Shown here piece after piece: positions 52,820-59,119 of a DNA stretch of 64,000 nucleotides. This DNA is from Clostridiales bacterium (GTDB taxonomy: Bacteria; Bacillota; Clostridia; Saccharofermentanales; Saccharofermentanaceae): contig JAGCVX010000007.1 in NCBI GenBank assembly GCA_017962145.1, positions 1 to 64,000 on the forward strand, written 5' to 3'. The translations under genes and the position numbers were made by a program. A model generated the notes under the pieces. It was not told the origin of the DNA. It made no database searches and saw only the letters and a list, made by a program, of their open reading frames with translations. Position 1 is the stretch's first letter. Each line of letters begins with the position of its first letter.

Positions 52820-53893
52820 ATGAAGACCAATCTCGCCAACAACATCCGTACTTTCCGTAAAGAACGAGGCCTGACCCAGGAGCAGCTCTCCGAGGTCTTC
52901 GGTGTTTCCGTCGGTGCCGTGCACAAATGGGAGACGGGTCTGTCGACTCCGGAACTTCCGATCATCCTCGAGATGGCCGACTTTTTCGACCTGTCGCTCG
53001 ATGTCATGATCGGCTTCGACCTCAAGGACAACAGCATGAAGGAGACCGCCCGCCGGCTCCGTCAGCTCAAAGATGCGCTCGATCCCGACGCGATCATCGA
53101 GGCGGAAAAGGCACTGAAGCGCTTCCCGCACAGTTTTGAGATCGTACGTGAGTGCGCGTGGATCTACTCCTCCTTCGGTTCATTTCTAAAGATCAACAAG
53201 AAATATCTCAACCGCTCAAAAGAGCTCTACTTTCAGGCACTCCGCCTCATCTCGCAAAACTCCGATCCGAACGTAAACGAAGCCGTACTCTATGGCGAAC
53301 TCTCGGGCGTATACCAGCTTCTCGGCGATACGAAGACCGCTCTGAAGATGCTCAAAGAACATAACGCCGGCGGTATCTTCAACATCTCCATCGGCCAGAT
53401 GCTCGCGATGCAAAAAGACCAGGAAGACGCCGACATCTACCTGTCCTACGCCCTTCTGATCAAGCTCGGCGAGATCTGTAACCTCATCATCTCGAAGATC
53501 TACGTGTTTGCCAGAACCGGCCAGTTCGAGGACGCCCGCGACCTTCTCGAGTGGGGCATCCAGACAAATCTTGCGATGAAAAAAGACGGCATGCCGATCT
53601 TCCTTGATAAGATCAGCTGCCTCTACCTGACCTGCATGGCCTGGGTCGAACTGCGGATGGATCACAAAAAGAAGGCAGCACAGTACTTAAAAGAAGCCAT
53701 CGAGACCGCGGATGCATTTGACGCGAATCCGGATTACGATGGCAAGAATCTGAAGTTCGTCGCCCTGAACCAGAGCTGCAAGATGTTCGAAAACACCGGC
53801 GAAACCGCCCGCATGAGCGTCGAAAACTGCGTCACCGAGATCCAGGATCCAGAATTTGACCAGTTCTGGAAAGAGTTCCAAAAGAAAAACTGA
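52820..53893 (+). CDS. XRE family helix-turn-helix regulator with helical sensor domain
   Basis: The 357-residue protein has an N-terminal Cro/CI-type domain (GLTQEQLSEVFGVSVGAVHK, ELPIILEMADFF) and a TPR-like helical C-terminal region. It has the same length and matching motifs as the regulator at 21397-22470 (KMLKEHNAGGIFNI, FLDKISCLYLTCMAWVELR). An aaggag site precedes the start. It has host-like base composition, while the AT-rich gene island starts 350 bp downstream. It may regulate that island, the divergent solute-binding protein, or other targets; the sequence does not decide. Confidence 0.9.
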   Translation: MKTNLANNIRTFRKERGLTQEQLSEVFGVSVGAVHKWETGLSTPELPIILEMADFFDLSLDVMIGFDLKDNSMKETARRLRQLKDALDPDAIIEAEKALKRFPHSFEIVRECAWIYSSFGSFLKINKKYLNRSKELYFQALRLISQNSDPNVNEAVLYGELSGVYQLLGDTKTALKMLKEHNAGGIFNISIGQMLAMQKDQEDADIYLSYALLIKLGEICNLIISKIYVFARTGQFEDARDLLEWGIQTNLAMKKDGMPIFLDKISCLYLTCMAWVELRMDHKKKAAQYLKEAIETADAFDANPDYDGKNLKFVALNQSCKMFENTGETARMSVENCVTEIQDPEFDQFWKEFQKKN

Positions 53894-54174
53894 TAGAGCT
53901 ATTGTGTAGCATGAATCTATTGTTTTTCGTATGTATCAATTCTACACAAATTCTACATGTCGGATATTAATATAACGATTATCCGGCATATTATTGCCGT
54001 TCAAAAATCAATTGTTCCTTCTTTTACGATTGCCTAAAAGATTCTGATAATACAAAATTACCAATAGGATAACAATTATATAATCAGCATGTAGCATTTT
54101 ACTCATACCTCAGTATTACATTTTTTGTGCTTTTGAAAACCTAGTGATTTTTTATCTGTTTTACACATCTGTTG
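53894..54174. other. AT-rich intergenic region in front of the gene island
   Basis: About 280 bp of markedly AT-rich DNA without a coding frame. It holds a 7-bp inverted repeat TGTGTAG / CTACACA (53903-53909 and 53942-53948), a CGGATA / TATCCG inverted repeat (about 53959-53983), and the 8-mer TGTAGCAT twice (about 53905 and 54091). No terminator is obvious for the XRE gene. It marks the composition change at the left edge of the island. Confidence 0.55.
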
Positions 54175-54203
54175 TTGACAAATTATTTTCGATGTTATAC
54201 TAT
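54175..54203 (+). promoter_or_regulatory. Strong promoter of the AT-rich island operon
   Basis: A consensus -35 TTGACA (54175-54180) and -10 TACTAT (54198-54203) are separated by exactly 17 bp. The first island gene starts 42 bp further on with a gaggtgg site. Confidence 0.8.
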
Positions 54204-54245
54204 GCAGTTGTAAAAATCTATTCATTTCCACGAGGTGGCTTGAGA

Positions 54246-54641
54246 ATGAATTACAATTTTGACTGGGACATTGTTAGCGAGGGCGCTCCTTATGTGACCA
54301 TCAGCAGCTTGGGGCTTGCCTTTAATATGGCATCAGTGAAAAAACTGGATACGCCCGAGTATGTTATGCTCGGATTTGACTGTAACCAGATGGTAATCGG
54401 AGTGAAACCAGTTACGGGAGTGGATGAAACCGAAAAGAACGTGTATCAGTTTAAAGGGAGAGTTAAAAACAACTGGGTGCGAATCGGATGCAAAGATTTT
54501 GTTAAATACCTTGAGAAACTATCAGGAGAGGACTATACAAAATCCAAGCGCTATATGGCTGATTTCGACTCGGATAATGACCTGCTGATCGTGAAGGTTT
54601 CCGAGGAAGGAGATGATGACATGACAGAAGAAAACATATAA
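54246..54641 (+). CDS. Unknown 131-residue protein, island gene A
   Basis: The ATG at 54246 follows CGAGGTGG; a longer frame starting at 54144 includes the promoter and is rejected. The protein has strands NFDWDIVSEGAPYVTIS, YVMLGFDCNQMVIGVKP and NWVRIGCKDFVKYLEKL and a very acidic C-terminal tail (EEGDDDMTEEN). No signal peptide or membrane helix. I do not recognise the family; it has some similarity of layout to small phage-type proteins. Codon and base composition are AT-rich like the rest of the island. Confidence 0.8.
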   Translation: MNYNFDWDIVSEGAPYVTISSLGLAFNMASVKKLDTPEYVMLGFDCNQMVIGVKPVTGVDETEKNVYQFKGRVKNNWVRIGCKDFVKYLEKLSGEDYTKSKRYMADFDSDNDLLIVKVSEEGDDDMTEENI

Positions 54642-54645
54642 GAAA

Positions 54646-54682
54646 ACACATCATCAACTACTGGTACTAGTTGGTGATGTGT
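54646..54682 (+). other. Strong RNA hairpin after island gene A
   Basis: ACACATCATCAACTA and TAGTTGGTGATGTGT pair over 15 positions (one T-G wobble) around a 7-nt loop. It begins 4 nt after the stop codon of gene A. No U-tract follows, so it is not a classic terminator; it could protect the mRNA end, attenuate reading into gene B or be part of an RNA. Confidence 0.7.
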
Positions 54683-54690
54683 ATAAGTTG

Positions 54691-54732
54691 TGTGCTATGA
54701 TTATAGCCTTCCAACATCTATATCATAGCACA
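54691..54732 (+). other. Second RNA hairpin between island genes A and B
   Basis: TGTGCTATGAT and ATCATAGCACA pair perfectly over 11 positions around a 20-nt loop; the pairing continues partly into the loop. It starts 8 nt after the first hairpin. Again there is no U-tract. Gene B begins 44 nt further on. Confidence 0.65.
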
Positions 54733-54776
54733 CCATTTCACTTTAGAATATTACATTTTTGGAGGACGGTGATGCT

Positions 54777-55454
54777 ATGATAGGTTCTATCATTGATATC
54801 TTCGAAATTGAACGTATCTACAGAAAATACTTGTTAGAACGAGATGTTAAGTTTGACAAACTCGGACGTCCAATCTTTCAGGCTTCTATGTTTTTGAAAA
54901 GTGCCCCTGATATGATTGTAACGTTCGGGTGCCGAAATAATCCTCGATTGGTTAAAGACCCTCTTAAAACTGCAATTTGTTTTTTTGCACCGGATTCTGA
55001 TTTATACCCTCGTCTTGAGAAGGTATTTGATGAGTTGGACGAGTACAAAAGGTTTTTGGCTGTTGTTACTATGGATCTTACGTTTACTGCCGACATGGAT
55101 GTTGAATTGCAGCACCTCATAGTTTCTATAAATCAGTTGTTTTCAATGATACTTGCAATCAATGGGATAAAACTAATACAAAATACCCGTTCCGGCGGGC
55201 TGAATTGTACTTATGCGTTTACTAATGTTCCAACAGGCATTTCTGTTGCTTCGGGATTCTTAGGTTGTTCCATGATATCCGAGAATAATCTATCGTATAT
55301 AAGTAAAATTTTGTTCTTATTACCGAGTCAGATTTTTATCTATGGAAAACATGATGCAGTCGCTGAAGCTCAACTAGATCAGTTTGGGTTTACGTACAGA
55401 AGTTATACAGATATGCACAGACTCATCAAGAATAAGGAGGTCTATTATGGCTGA
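54777..55454 (+). CDS. DUF4417-like protein, island gene B
   Basis: The ATG at 54777 lies behind ggagg; a TTG at 54759 is an alternative. The 225-residue protein resembles DUF4417 proteins, mostly found in phages and mobile elements: a first helix with a PLKTAICFFAPDSDLYPRLE strand, AVVTMDLTFTADMD (in place of TPDFSLY), GIKLIQNTRSGG, FTNVPTGISVASGFLGC and LLPSQIFIYGKHD. The DUF4417 function is unknown. It overlaps gene C by 8 bp. Confidence 0.7.
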   Translation: MIGSIIDIFEIERIYRKYLLERDVKFDKLGRPIFQASMFLKSAPDMIVTFGCRNNPRLVKDPLKTAICFFAPDSDLYPRLEKVFDELDEYKRFLAVVTMDLTFTADMDVELQHLIVSINQLFSMILAINGIKLIQNTRSGGLNCTYAFTNVPTGISVASGFLGCSMISENNLSYISKILFLLPSQIFIYGKHDAVAEAQLDQFGFTYRSYTDMHRLIKNKEVYYG

Positions 55455-55815
55455 TGATAAACCAAAGTACTCTAAAGCATCGAGTACTTTTGTACAAAAA
55501 ACAATCCACGAGTCCAAAACGGACATGGACAGATACGAAAGAAGCAAGGAGAGAGAACGTAAATTTAATGATACCTGGATGCAGAACATGGTTAATCTCA
55601 ATGATATAGTCCATTTGTTCGCACCCAATTCAGAAGGAAAAGTTCATGGGGTAAAATTTGAATTTGAAGGCGACAGGTATATCATAAAAGCAGATATGGC
55701 AAGCGGATATTTGCGAATATATGACAAAATCTTACGTGCTTATGTGAAACTGGATGGCAATCCAGGATCATTGTCGAATACACACTTTAAGATTATGAAA
55801 AGGAGTGAGATGTGA
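55447..55815 (+). CDS. Unknown 122-residue protein, island gene C
   Basis: The ATG at 55447 follows aaggagg and lies inside the end of gene B, so translation is coupled. The N-terminal third (MADDKPKYSKASSTFVQKT, then DMDRYERSKERERKF) is highly charged and probably disordered or coiled-coil. The rest has a strand-rich region, KVHGVKFEFEGDRYIIKAD and YLRIYDKILRAYVKLDG. No known family, signal peptide or membrane helix. Confidence 0.75.
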   Translation: MADDKPKYSKASSTFVQKTIHESKTDMDRYERSKERERKFNDTWMQNMVNLNDIVHLFAPNSEGKVHGVKFEFEGDRYIIKADMASGYLRIYDKILRAYVKLDGNPGSLSNTHFKIMKRSEM

Positions 55816-56165
55816 GTATGAAAGTGTATTTAGCTAAAGACCTAACAGATCTGCCAATGTATGGAGATGTTCCAGATTTGACACAAGCATTGCCCCCAAA
55901 AGTCGTTTCTTTCGAGATTTCAGAAGACGCGGGCAGAAAACTTGATTCTTCGTTCGTAGATTCGACAAATACGTTGTGCGATGCCACATTGGATTTCGGA
56001 GATTATCAATACTATGATCCAAAACAGTGTGGCCTATTGTTGAAATGGGTTGAAAATACTGTAGACAACGCAACAGACCCTTTATTGCTTGAGTTTTATC
56101 ACAACCTGAGAGTATTTCTCGAGTATGCAGTTAGTAACAACACAGGACTTGCGATTGAATTGTGA
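55812..56165 (+). CDS. Unknown 117-residue protein, island gene D
   Basis: A GTG at 55812 overlaps the gene C stop by 4 bp and has ggag at good distance; an ATG at 55818 is the alternative. The product (MKVYLAKDLTDLPMYGDVP at its start) is acidic, with DFGDYQYYDPKQCGLLLKW in the middle and a helical end (EFYHNLRVFLEYAVSNN). No family is recognised. Composition matches the island. Confidence 0.72.
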   Translation: MSMKVYLAKDLTDLPMYGDVPDLTQALPPKVVSFEISEDAGRKLDSSFVDSTNTLCDATLDFGDYQYYDPKQCGLLLKWVENTVDNATDPLLLEFYHNLRVFLEYAVSNNTGLAIEL

Positions 56166-56175
56166 GGTCACTTTG

Positions 56176-56598
56176 ATGAAGACTTCATACAAACTGTTCG
56201 GCATATACTGGGATCATAAAAGCAGCGTTGATTTTCAGGAAATCGCGATTATTCCATACAAGCCAAGGATTGATTACAAGGCAGGCTATTGTTTGTTCGA
56301 TATTATCGGAGAGTTCCGCGCAATAAAATTCAGCGAGTTACTCTCTGTCGAGACAGACGATAAGTGGATTTCCATTTGTACCAAACTTAAAAACATCGGC
56401 AAAATCGCTATAGAAATTGACTACGTGCCTTTCCCGTCAGAAATCTCTTCAGCATTCTTTTTGAAAAAGCTGTGCCAAATCTACTATGCATTACAGCATG
56501 ACAACCCTGACTCTCAGCTCGCTATTCAAATACCTCCAGACAGTTCCGATCCATGGCAAGAAATACTTGCCACAGTATCAACGTGTTCAACACGATAA
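56176..56598 (+). CDS. Unknown 140-residue protein, island gene E
   Basis: The ATG at 56176 follows gtgaggt, 10 bp after gene D; the longer frame from 56125 overlaps gene D and is unlikely. The protein has alternating strands and a helix: YKLFGIYWDHKSSVDFQEIA, LFDIIGEFRAIKFSELLSV, KIAIEIDYVPFPSEISSAFF and FFLKKLCQIYYALQ. The pattern (tyrosine-rich strands, acidic helix) recalls immunity-type or phage accessory proteins, but I cannot place it. A large hairpin follows its stop and ends the island. Confidence 0.74.
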   Translation: MKTSYKLFGIYWDHKSSVDFQEIAIIPYKPRIDYKAGYCLFDIIGEFRAIKFSELLSVETDDKWISICTKLKNIGKIAIEIDYVPFPSEISSAFFLKKLCQIYYALQHDNPDSQLAIQIPPDSSDPWQEILATVSTCSTR

Positions 56599-56673
56599 GA
56601 GAAAAACCTTTCTAAGGCTCTCTCCGCAGACGCATCGCGTCAAGGAGCAGAGCCGGGAAAGGGGTTTTCTCTT
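56597..56673. terminator. Long bidirectional terminator hairpin at the right edge of the island
   Basis: AAGAGAAAA and TTTTCTCTT form the outer stem, then CTTTC / GAAAG, GGCTCT / AGAGCC and GACGC / GCGTC inside. It overlaps the stop of gene E and reaches the stop of the opposing membrane protein gene, so it can end both transcripts. Confidence 0.75.
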
Positions 56674-57304
56674 ACTTCTTGACTCGTTCTTTCACTGCGC
56701 AAACAATCAAACCCACAACATCCAGTCCGAAGAAGTACTGCGTGACCGACATGCCGATCGCGTAAGCTTTTCCGTGCGCGCCGTCCTTTACGCCTTTGAC
56801 CAGGAACGCGATCAGCATCGGCGCGGTGCCTGCCATGGAGATCCAGCCCATTACCGACAGAAATGCGATCGCCGGCGGGGAAACAAAGATCATGAATACG
56901 ATCGGGGTAAAGATCAGAAGGAAAAAGATCACGATGAGCATACCGCCCATGATATAAAACGGGATCAGTGCATACTTGGTGATCCTCGCTGCGATCAGCA
57001 TCTCTCTTCGATTTACATTCTTCGATGTCGCGCAGATGACGATGTTGATGATCGCCAGCAGAAGCGGGATCAGAAGGAACACAAACACCAGGTTCGAGCC
57101 CAGCCCACCGTTCGACTGACGGGCAAATTCATCGTATTGTTCCTGACTCGTGATTGATGCGTCCGGATGCGGCAGCGCATTGACCGCCAGGACCGGATAG
57201 ATATATGTCATCACGACATAGATGATGGACCAGATATAGATCGGCCGAAATCCTCTCTTTTCCGGTATCAGCGTACCGGTACCGTTAAAGTCTCCATTCT
57301 CCAT
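56672..57304 (-). CDS. Membrane protein, function unknown
   Basis: The 210-residue protein has about four to five transmembrane segments: IYIWSIIYVVMTYIYPVLAV, LVFVFLLIPLLLAIINIVIC, ALIPFYIMGGMLIVIFFLLIF, IVFMIFVSPPAIAFLSVMGW and a last one near FFGLDVVGLIVCA. A polar loop (about 40-65) lies outside. It starts after ggagagagatt. The base composition is host-like, unlike the adjacent island. No family name can be given. Confidence 0.83.
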   Translation of the reverse strand: MENGDFNGTGTLIPEKRGFRPIYIWSIIYVVMTYIYPVLAVNALPHPDASITSQEQYDEFARQSNGGLGSNLVFVFLLIPLLLAIINIVICATSKNVNRREMLIAARITKYALIPFYIMGGMLIVIFFLLIFTPIVFMIFVSPPAIAFLSVMGWISMAGTAPMLIAFLVKGVKDGAHGKAYAIGMSVTQYFFGLDVVGLIVCAVKERVKK

Positions 57305-57499: not shown

Positions 57500-59119
57500 A
57501 TGACACTTGAATCACTATACGAGGGCGTAAACCTTCAAGACTACTATATCGGACGCGTCACGCAGACTTTCAGAAGCTGCTGTGTGGCACAGGTCGAAAA
57601 CCTCCCTCTGATGTACGACAGAAGCAAGTTCAACAGATCTTTCCTGCCGAATACCATCAACTACTTTGTACTGATCGAATCCACCGCCGGTATCTTCCTC
57701 GGTGAAGTATTCGAGAACAAAGCGGCGAAGATGGAGAACTTCGACGCAGTCATGAACGGCGAAGAAGCCGACGGATTCCACGAGATCTGCATCGATACGA
57801 TTGCTCTTATGGGACCGAACGCAAACAAGTTCGAGCTCGCCGGTTTTTCGACCCTCGGTATCACCGACAAGGTCTATCTCGCAACCGATCAGGTCTATAC
57901 CCTGTTCCTGCAGTCCCTCGAGTTCGCCCGCGACGATGAAGAGTCGCTCCCCGCTTTCGCAACTTACCTCAACCGTGGTAAGAACGCAGAAGTTATCTTA
58001 AAGCCGAGTACACTTTTCAACCGTCACCTCATGTGCATCGGTGCGACAAACAGTGGTAAGTCTACCACCGCACTGGCTATCCTCGACAAGTTGATCTCCA
58101 CAGGCCGTAAGGCACTGATCATCGACCCGACAGGTGAGTACAGAGACGCTTTTTCCAACCAGGAAGTCACCAAGCTGACCCTCGGTGTCGATACCACGAT
58201 CTCCCCGAGTAAGATCCGTATGGAACAGTGGGAAAAACTTTTCGAAACCGAAAACAGCAGCCAGGGTGCCGTTCTTTCCGAGGCGATCACTTCTCTTCGT
58301 TACATGAAGAAGGTCGGAGATGACTCCTACTACTTCAAAGTCGGTGCCAACATCGACGAAGTTCAGGAAAACCTCGCTTCCGTTTCCAAGGACGATACAG
58401 ACTTTAATATCGAGCTCCTGCCGGAGCAGATCCAGGCTGAGTCCGTATGCGAGCCGGATCGTGACAACAACTACAACTTCAGATATCGTTATGACTCCCT
58501 GAAGGCAAACTCCAACGCTTCCTTCGTACAGAAGATCCAGTATCAGATGACAAACACCCGATTCCTGACCTTCTTCTCGAACGATCCGGGCATGTATAAC
58601 CTTCTCGATGTCGTAGACGATTTCGTACATAACCCGAGCTCGAGCCTTTACATCGACACTTCTTCCCTCGGTGCTGCCGAAGGTATCGGTGGTATGGTCA
58701 TCGACCTCGTAAGTAACTTTGTTATTTCTGAGGACAATGTTTCCCCGTTCGTATTCTTCATCGACGAGGTTCACAGATATTCCAAGTCCAGATATTCCGA
58801 GAAGGAATTCCACGGCGGCCTGACCCTCATCGCAAGAGAAGGTCGTAGAAAGGGTATCTTCCTTTACCTGACATCCCAGAACCCGAAGGACGTATCTCCG
58901 GTTCTCTTTGGTCAGATCGGTACCCTCCTGATCCACAGACTCATGCTCAACGACGAGATCCGCGCCGTAGAGAGCCACCTCGACGATTACGCGATCAAGC
59001 ACGTAAGAAAGCTGAATCAGGGCGAAGTGATCCTCACGAGCGTAAACCTCCTGCATAACGTATTCATCCACGTTAACAAGAGTGCCAGAAAGCAGTACAA
59101 CGATACTCCGCTTCTTTGA
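57500..59119 (+). CDS. HerA-like ATPase (HAS-barrel plus FtsK/VirB4-type motor)
   Basis: The 539-residue protein has an N-terminal HAS-barrel region (residues 1-150: YYIGRVTQTFRSCCVAQVEN), Walker A GATNSGKSTTAL (about 181-192), Walker B FFIDEVHRYSK (about 419), sensor segment LYLTSQNPKDVSP and a C-terminal VFIHVNKSARK. HerA motors form hexamers that pull DNA and usually work with NurA or SIR2-like or DUF4297-type effectors in defence systems. No such partner is adjacent. The codon use is strongly host-like and optimised. A terminator follows, so it is a single-gene unit. Confidence 0.9.
   Translation: MTLESLYEGVNLQDYYIGRVTQTFRSCCVAQVENLPLMYDRSKFNRSFLPNTINYFVLIESTAGIFLGEVFENKAAKMENFDAVMNGEEADGFHEICIDTIALMGPNANKFELAGFSTLGITDKVYLATDQVYTLFLQSLEFARDDEESLPAFATYLNRGKNAEVILKPSTLFNRHLMCIGATNSGKSTTALAILDKLISTGRKALIIDPTGEYRDAFSNQEVTKLTLGVDTTISPSKIRMEQWEKLFETENSSQGAVLSEAITSLRYMKKVGDDSYYFKVGANIDEVQENLASVSKDDTDFNIELLPEQIQAESVCEPDRDNNYNFRYRYDSLKANSNASFVQKIQYQMTNTRFLTFFSNDPGMYNLLDVVDDFVHNPSSSLYIDTSSLGAAEGIGGMVIDLVSNFVISEDNVSPFVFFIDEVHRYSKSRYSEKEFHGGLTLIAREGRRKGIFLYLTSQNPKDVSPVLFGQIGTLLIHRLMLNDEIRAVESHLDDYAIKHVRKLNQGEVILTSVNLLHNVFIHVNKSARKQYNDTPLL

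Follow-up and report, generated by a model that had tools for sequence, protein, structure and literature searches.

Polymorphic toxin-immunity systems join a conserved N-terminal part to interchangeable C-terminal toxin domains, with an immunity gene directly downstream and with orphan immunity genes (Zhang et al., 2012, PMC3482391). These features are shared by cassettes built around genes of the DUF4417 family, to which we assign a five-gene operon (genes A to E) found in a window of 64,000 nucleotides, the whole stretch of DNA analyzed here (contig JAGCVX010000007.1 of the Clostridiales bacterium assembly GCA_017962145.1). Unlike the systems described by Zhang et al., the constant part of DUF4417 cassettes consists of a leader of about 13–15 residues together with a separate upstream DUF4417 protein, no trafficking domain is fused in them, and gene C of the window, the putative toxin gene, does not have the shared leader. 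Temperate phages carry MuF polymorphic toxins (Jamet et al., 2017, PMC5576092), which are likewise interchangeable and are encoded, with immunity genes, in the packaging region, but no MuF domain was found by Pfam in A to E nor in 30 cassette toxins scanned, and DUF4417 cassettes also occur as isolated chromosomal units with a regulator pair of their own. A third likeness is to a PAAR/DUF4150 type VI effector of Psychrobacter (CP151286), where a tip resembling gene C is followed at once by an acidic protein of the DMP12 family; in that effector the tip forms one protein with a PAAR-like domain, whereas gene C encodes a small separate protein behind DUF4417.

The window operon is, in our judgment, probably a horizontally moving toxin-immunity cassette built around DUF4417, whose most likely products are a toxin that damages DNA or RNA and the antidote to it. 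It is best read as acquired, and as a deeply divergent member of a DUF4417-centered class spanning bacteria and phages.

DUF4417 genes and the toxin genes that follow them

An earlier note on this DNA had likened gene B to DUF4417, and this stands: gene B matches the family (PF14386) with 27.1 bits (E-value 3e-6), just under the Pfam cut-off of 28.9 bits, its orthologue in G773, a genome of another genus in the same family, exceeds the cut-off (30.3 bits), and all six residues that are invariant in 55 DUF4417 sequences are kept in it. Contig scans of genomes or viruses with B, E, A or C alone yielded no relative, and direct BLAST of gene B against phages and plasmids found nothing. As the searches with gene B gave no relatives, the wider family was reached through DUF4417 copies of the same genus. 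This survey retrieved 80 loci from other species, 79 of them with enough sequence, hosted by Bacillota, Actinomycetota, Spirochaetota, Pseudomonadota and Mycoplasmatota. In 69 of the 79, the next gene starts between −14 and +5 bp from the DUF4417 stop codon and opens with one constant, glycine-rich leader, M-G-x-G-x-[HYN]-G-G-F-G-x-T-x-G. The domains after the leader are unrelated to each other and include LHH, Tox-GHH, EndoU, Ntox50, PBECR1, YwqJ-deaminase and zincin-like domains, among others, where a few of the examples come from other DUF4417 clades, which bear other leaders. Motif typing distinguished at least eight toxin types within one DUF4417 clade with one leader. Recognized immunity types follow the toxin gene in some loci (SUKH in 7 of 39, DUF4926 in 3 of 39). 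On the upstream side, a gene with an HExxH motif was found in 46 of 66 loci, and 42 proteins encoded just upstream of DUF4417 included 18 of the ImmA/IrrE type and 17 of the XRE type; since the other 20 of the 66 loci are without the HExxH gene, we regard the XRE-ImmA/IrrE pair as common but not defining.

The leader type follows the DUF4417 clade. It changes 10 times on the family tree, which is the minimum, compared with a mean of 20.5 after shuffling the labels, and none of 200 shuffles was as low, although such shuffles do not fully correct for relatedness; the tree has long branches and was used for this comparison only. As the leader goes with the clade while the toxin domains vary, we propose that DUF4417 handles the leader and not the toxin domain. 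The genome of the window repeats the pattern on a small scale: it has four more DUF4417 genes (Table 1), and the gene after each is small and toxin-like, of a different kind every time (zincin-like, type-24-like, GHH nuclease and an SRGA-leader type); in at least three cases an immunity-like gene comes next. The hallmark of polymorphic toxins, an N-terminal part that stays constant while the toxin domains are exchanged, is thus found in DUF4417 cassettes as a class, and the succession of DUF4417, changing toxin and immunity gene is strongly supported. For the sub-type present in the window only one toxin type was seen.

The same arrangement is carried by phages. DUF4417 occurs in 489 phage records, including 369 of Mycobacterium and 42 of Gordonia phages. 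In Streptococcus phages the gene lies just before the terminase gene, sometimes fused to a ParB-like domain, and in phage Javan258 the next gene, related to a toxin gene of a bacterial cassette, overlaps the end of DUF4417 by 4 bp. Genes 1–3 of Mycobacterium phage XianYue (L187 507-2394) encode DUF4417, a toxin and a small possible immunity protein; the second gene overlaps DUF4417, and its product, which starts with MGGRGSKGG, is annotated as a VIP2-like ADP-ribosyltransferase toxin. In phage Lewan the gene after DUF4417 starts with MGGRGGGGG, and a plasmid of L. salivarius has a degraded cassette in which a DUF4417 remnant precedes a gene annotated by NCBI as polymorphic toxin type 24. The position of the Streptococcus pair directly before the terminase, one of them with a ParB-like fusion, and of the XianYue pair at the start of the genome would suit a delivered toxin, which B would load by its leader onto phage particles, phage DNA or a secretion route while D and E protect kin; the MuF toxins share the same packaging region (PMC5576092), and the closest relative of gene C, the tip of a PAAR effector, is itself a delivered toxin. 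We nevertheless hold this reading to be possible but rather unlikely, as the bacterial cassettes that were read are isolated in the chromosome and have no prophage genes near them, no signal or export/trafficking domain was seen, and the shared leader by which a toxin would be loaded is missing from gene C.

Toxin and immunity candidates of the window operon

In the window, as in the cassettes, the DUF4417 gene is coupled to the putative toxin gene, and this to the putative immunity gene. The earlier note had pointed to three tight junctions, and these are an overlap of 8 bp between B and C, an overlap of 4 bp between C and D and a gap of 10 bp between D and E; A and B are separated by 135 bp. 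Its remark that no known effector domain is visible proved too pessimistic. Residues 35–110 of the gene C product match the C-terminal tip of the PAAR-like effector on the Psychrobacter plasmid (tblastn against plasmids, E-value 1e-3; blastp, 35% identity over 74 residues; hhalign probability 95), and on that plasmid a gene for a DMP12-family DNA mimic directly follows the effector gene (L138 1284-2650). By sequence comparison gene C is probably a toxin gene, likely for a nuclease. A weaker match of gene C in another genome, G486 (E-value 1e-4), was dismissed as a chance match, the region encoding an ABC transporter ATPase.

The place of the DMP12 gene beside the effector gene suggests that DMP12 proteins are immunity proteins, and from it came a prediction for gene D that was made before any fold search. 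The best match of the gene D model was indeed DMP12 (3w1o; Z-score 7.0 over 99 residues, 4.3 Å), and all matches besides DMP12 and YfbM had Z-scores of at most 4.8. On this modeled, DMP12-like fold, gene D is a probable immunity gene. Foldseek alone gave no confident Protein Data Bank (PDB) match for the gene D model or for the model of a DUF4417 family member. Gene E has no match in the curated family searches, nor any relative outside its operon in the genomes searched save a degraded copy beside D in G730, a further genome; because it accompanies D there and its relatives are otherwise confined to the operon, we take it, as a guess, for a second immunity or accessory gene.

Several results weigh against the reading of the operon as a DUF4417 cassette. 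Gene C does not start with the glycine-rich leader (its product begins MADDKPKYSKASS, and that of its orthologue MADDKDRYADAS), and it had no match to a curated toxin family in the family searches. The gene D model was built from a single sequence and is only moderately confident (predicted local distance difference test, pLDDT, 69), YfbM matches it nearly as well as DMP12 (Z-score 6.9), and a link to DMP12 (PF16779) by sequence profile failed, with no Pfam match and an hhalign probability of 2.9. Gene B is very divergent within the DUF4417 tree, and only two complete operons of the window sub-type were found; to these points are added the missing profile link and nucleophile of the DUF4417 fold, given below. 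From the missing leader we conclude that the window operon is an outlying branch of the class, and as the sequence profiles do not join gene D and DMP12 we treat their likeness as a supported lead and not as a family assignment.

Acquisition and spread of the operon

The earlier note had described five compact, AT-rich frames of foreign composition, and all five are present at the lengths it gave (Table 1). The fraction of guanine and cytosine in genes A to E is 0.37–0.42, compared with a mean of 0.51 (standard deviation 0.026, minimum 0.455) in 37 long open reading frames elsewhere in the window, and their codon-usage scores, from −0.07 to −0.31, all lie below the lowest of these 37 background genes (−0.02), so that codon usage is not host-like. 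Nor are these core genes of the genus, and thus neither of the two outcomes that the earlier note had named as refuting came about. A search of 115 genomes of the family found gene D in 3, the window's own included, and in none of the 22 other genomes of the window's genus; gene E was found in its own genome only, among 59 relatives searched.

The same gene order does occur elsewhere. G773 has the complete series A-B-C-D-E, closely coupled, with amino acid identities to the window of 73% for A, 65% for B, 64% for C, 56% for D and 49% for E, while G730 retains only D and a broken E as an orphan pair. Downstream in the window, a gene for a HerA-like ATPase got a high PADLOC score, but it is present in all 23 genomes of the genus and was rejected as a part of the system. 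In all eight relatives examined, A to E are absent from the place upstream of HerA, where the DNA differs between relatives and looks like an insertion hotspot. The full operon in a second genus, the D-E remnant in G730 and the absence beside HerA indicate together that the operon is a moving functional unit; it is neither a set of core genes nor random debris. We find it improbable that it is the decaying remnant of a phage, or a spare toxin-tip cassette whose only use is to supply larger polymorphic toxins with sequence by recombination: standalone cassettes are established as recombination donors (PMC3482391) and D-E also occurs as an orphan pair, but the five genes are intact in two genera, and a leader, coupling and regulators of their own mark the DUF4417 cassettes.

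Two further observations were made near such loci. In one relative, 6 kb upstream of HerA, lies an orphan gene (L180 24-716) similar to the one for the zinc-ribbon protein that partners zincin-type cassette toxins. A divergent gene for a protein of 395–407 residues of unknown family (starting MEFKEIFN) adjoins DUF4417 cassettes at two loci (L144 5719-6906 and L019 8271-9494), and at the first of these it shares 4 bp with an orphan D gene.

The claim that this is an acquired accessory system is supported for a toxin-immunity system, but not for phage defense specifically. The G773 operon is followed (L145 6075-7298) by an RloB-like gene, a TIR-domain gene and then a second, convergent DUF4417 cassette, neighbors that are suggestive only. 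They would fit anti-phage abortive infection, in which an intracellular toxin is restrained by D and E until B or A senses infection or damage. So would the XRE-ImmA/IrrE pairs upstream of most other cassettes; such pairs, in prophages and integrative elements, release repression after damage. No secretion genes were seen in the neighborhood stretches read, which did not amount to an exhaustive search. PADLOC, however, had no match to A to E, and the cassettes are also borne by phages themselves. Moreover, the toxins within each DUF4417 clade are of many unrelated types and are paired with immunity genes, which fits rivalry between cells or between phages better than a tuned intracellular sensor. 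We view abortive infection as a possible but rather unlikely explanation.

The signals and flanks of the operon are listed in Table 1. The promoter sequence named in the earlier note, TTGACA-17-TACTAT, is present and plausibly placed, but promoter-like sites in the region are no commoner than in shuffled sequences (10 vs. 9.2 ± 3.0), for which reason we call it a candidate promoter only. The closing hairpin is real as well, with arms of 26 nucleotides (56596-56621 and 56649-56674) that are 77% complementary and a folding energy of −45 kcal/mol, but it does not have the form of a classic short-loop terminator.

Table 1. Features of the A to E operon, its surroundings and the other DUF4417 genes of the same genome (positions in the window unless a contig is given; pI, isoelectric point)
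Feature	Position	Strand	Description
XRE-TPR regulator gene	52820..53893		left flank, host-like
Candidate promoter	54175..54203	+	sigma-70-type, ahead of gene A
Gene A	54246..54641	+	131 residues, acidic, pI 4.5; probable regulator, conserved upstream partner of DUF4417
A-B spacer	54642..54776	+	structured, 135 bp
Gene B	54777..55454	+	225 residues; divergent DUF4417
Gene C	55447..55815	+	122 residues, basic, pI 9.25; probable nuclease-type toxin
Gene D	55812..56165	+	117 residues, strongly acidic, pI 4.1; start codon GTG, possible alternative start ATG at 55818; probable immunity protein, DMP12-like fold
Gene E	56176..56598	+	140 residues; probable second immunity or accessory protein
Closing hairpin	56596..56674	+	probable terminator, common to the operon and the convergent membrane-protein gene
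Membrane-protein gene	56672..57304		right flank, convergent
HerA-like ATPase gene	57500..59119		core gene of the genus
DUF4417 gene	G000:C7:75481-76035		further copy in the same genome
DUF4417 gene	G000:C7:95493-96032		further copy in the same genome
DUF4417 gene	G000:C15:51183-51764		further copy in the same genome
DUF4417 gene	G000:C15:37685-38236		further copy in the same genome

Predicted fold, regulation and wider meaning of DUF4417

A model of a DUF4417 family member other than gene B (pLDDT 91.5) was best aligned to the archaeosine tRNA-guanine transglycosylase (TGT) 1iq8 (Z-score 10.4 over 174 residues), with the DNA preQ0 insertase DpdA (7ui4) at a Z-score of 9.6, and among viral models the family matched phage queuine tRNA-ribosyltransferases, after DUF4417 itself. 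The gene B family is thereby predicted to be a TGT-type barrel, by fold only. A relation by sequence was rejected after profile comparisons: the hhalign probability between the DUF4417 and TGT profiles is 0.1, and a profile search of the PDB returned no TGT. By our reading of the alignment the TGT nucleophile position is not conserved in DUF4417, while two invariant aspartates fall near the base-binding and acid positions of TGT, as we read them from the order of the barrel and not from a computed alignment. Gene B might in principle encode an enzyme with transglycosylase-like activity on DNA or tRNA, with C and D as a nuclease and its regulator as in Dpd-type systems, and the fold matches and the aspartates would agree with this. 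Yet the profile link and the nucleophile are missing, and the partners of DUF4417 are changing toxins and not a fixed restriction enzyme, which distinguishes these operons from TGT and DpdA; base modification thus seems to us quite unlikely.

Gene A occupies the place of the XRE and ImmA/IrrE pair, which is absent from the window operon. Its orthologues head the same operon in G773 and lie upstream of DUF4417 in another genome, G217 (48% identity), and it has weak phage relatives (phrog_1799, E-value 4.6e-5); it is a probable regulator gene. The spacer between A and B folds far better than shuffled sequences (z −6.6). It comprises a first hairpin (54646-54682) and an inverted repeat (54685-54701/54722-54738), whose second arm can pair with the arm upstream of it or, alternatively, with the region where gene B starts. 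The spacer is kept between the window and G773, with one pair changed on both sides, and it has no Rfam match. It may serve as an RNA switch or else as an operator for a protein; a claim of a riboswitch was dropped, as the covariation comes from two sequences with one clear two-sided change.

We propose the following mechanism for the toxin-immunity cassette. Gene A and the A-B spacer would replace the XRE-ImmA/IrrE repressor-protease pair and set the timing of B, C, D and E. B would be the constant partner that handles the toxin and is translated in step with it, most likely binding or modifying the toxin leader as a chaperone, adaptor or loading factor. The toxin C would be made beside the acidic immunity protein D, a DMP12-like nucleic-acid mimic that probably blocks the substrate-binding face of C, and E would be a second immunity or accessory protein. 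The toxin may be delivered, or it may act within its own cell, for instance when a phage infects. Our assignments become less firm in the order C as toxin, D as immunity protein, B as leader-handling partner, A as regulator and E as second immunity protein. More tentatively, and with less than even confidence, we suggest that DUF4417 defines a separate, phage-spanning toxin class in which a TGT-fold protein specifically recognizes a short leader on interchangeable standalone toxins and perhaps modifies it or loads it (onto DNA or virions), the window operon being a deeply divergent branch with a leader of its own, gene A as its own regulator and, upstream of DUF4417, a switch formed by RNA or an operator.

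DUF4417 has so far been an orphan domain, and in the literature searched we found a single remark on its function, a passage of one article (PMC12704722) that reports its fusion to ParB-CTPase domains in phages; an association with toxins was not found described in the portions of the open-access literature searched, subscription journals not being covered. As the constant partner of small toxins that change from locus to locus, in bacteria of the rumen and gut as well as in phages, the family gains a testable role, and the question arises how one toxin module is employed both by phages and by chromosomal islets. DMP12 proteins, described to date as DNA mimics, would likely serve in nature as immunity proteins, and the position of DUF4417 alone predicts many toxins and immunity proteins that are as yet unannotated.

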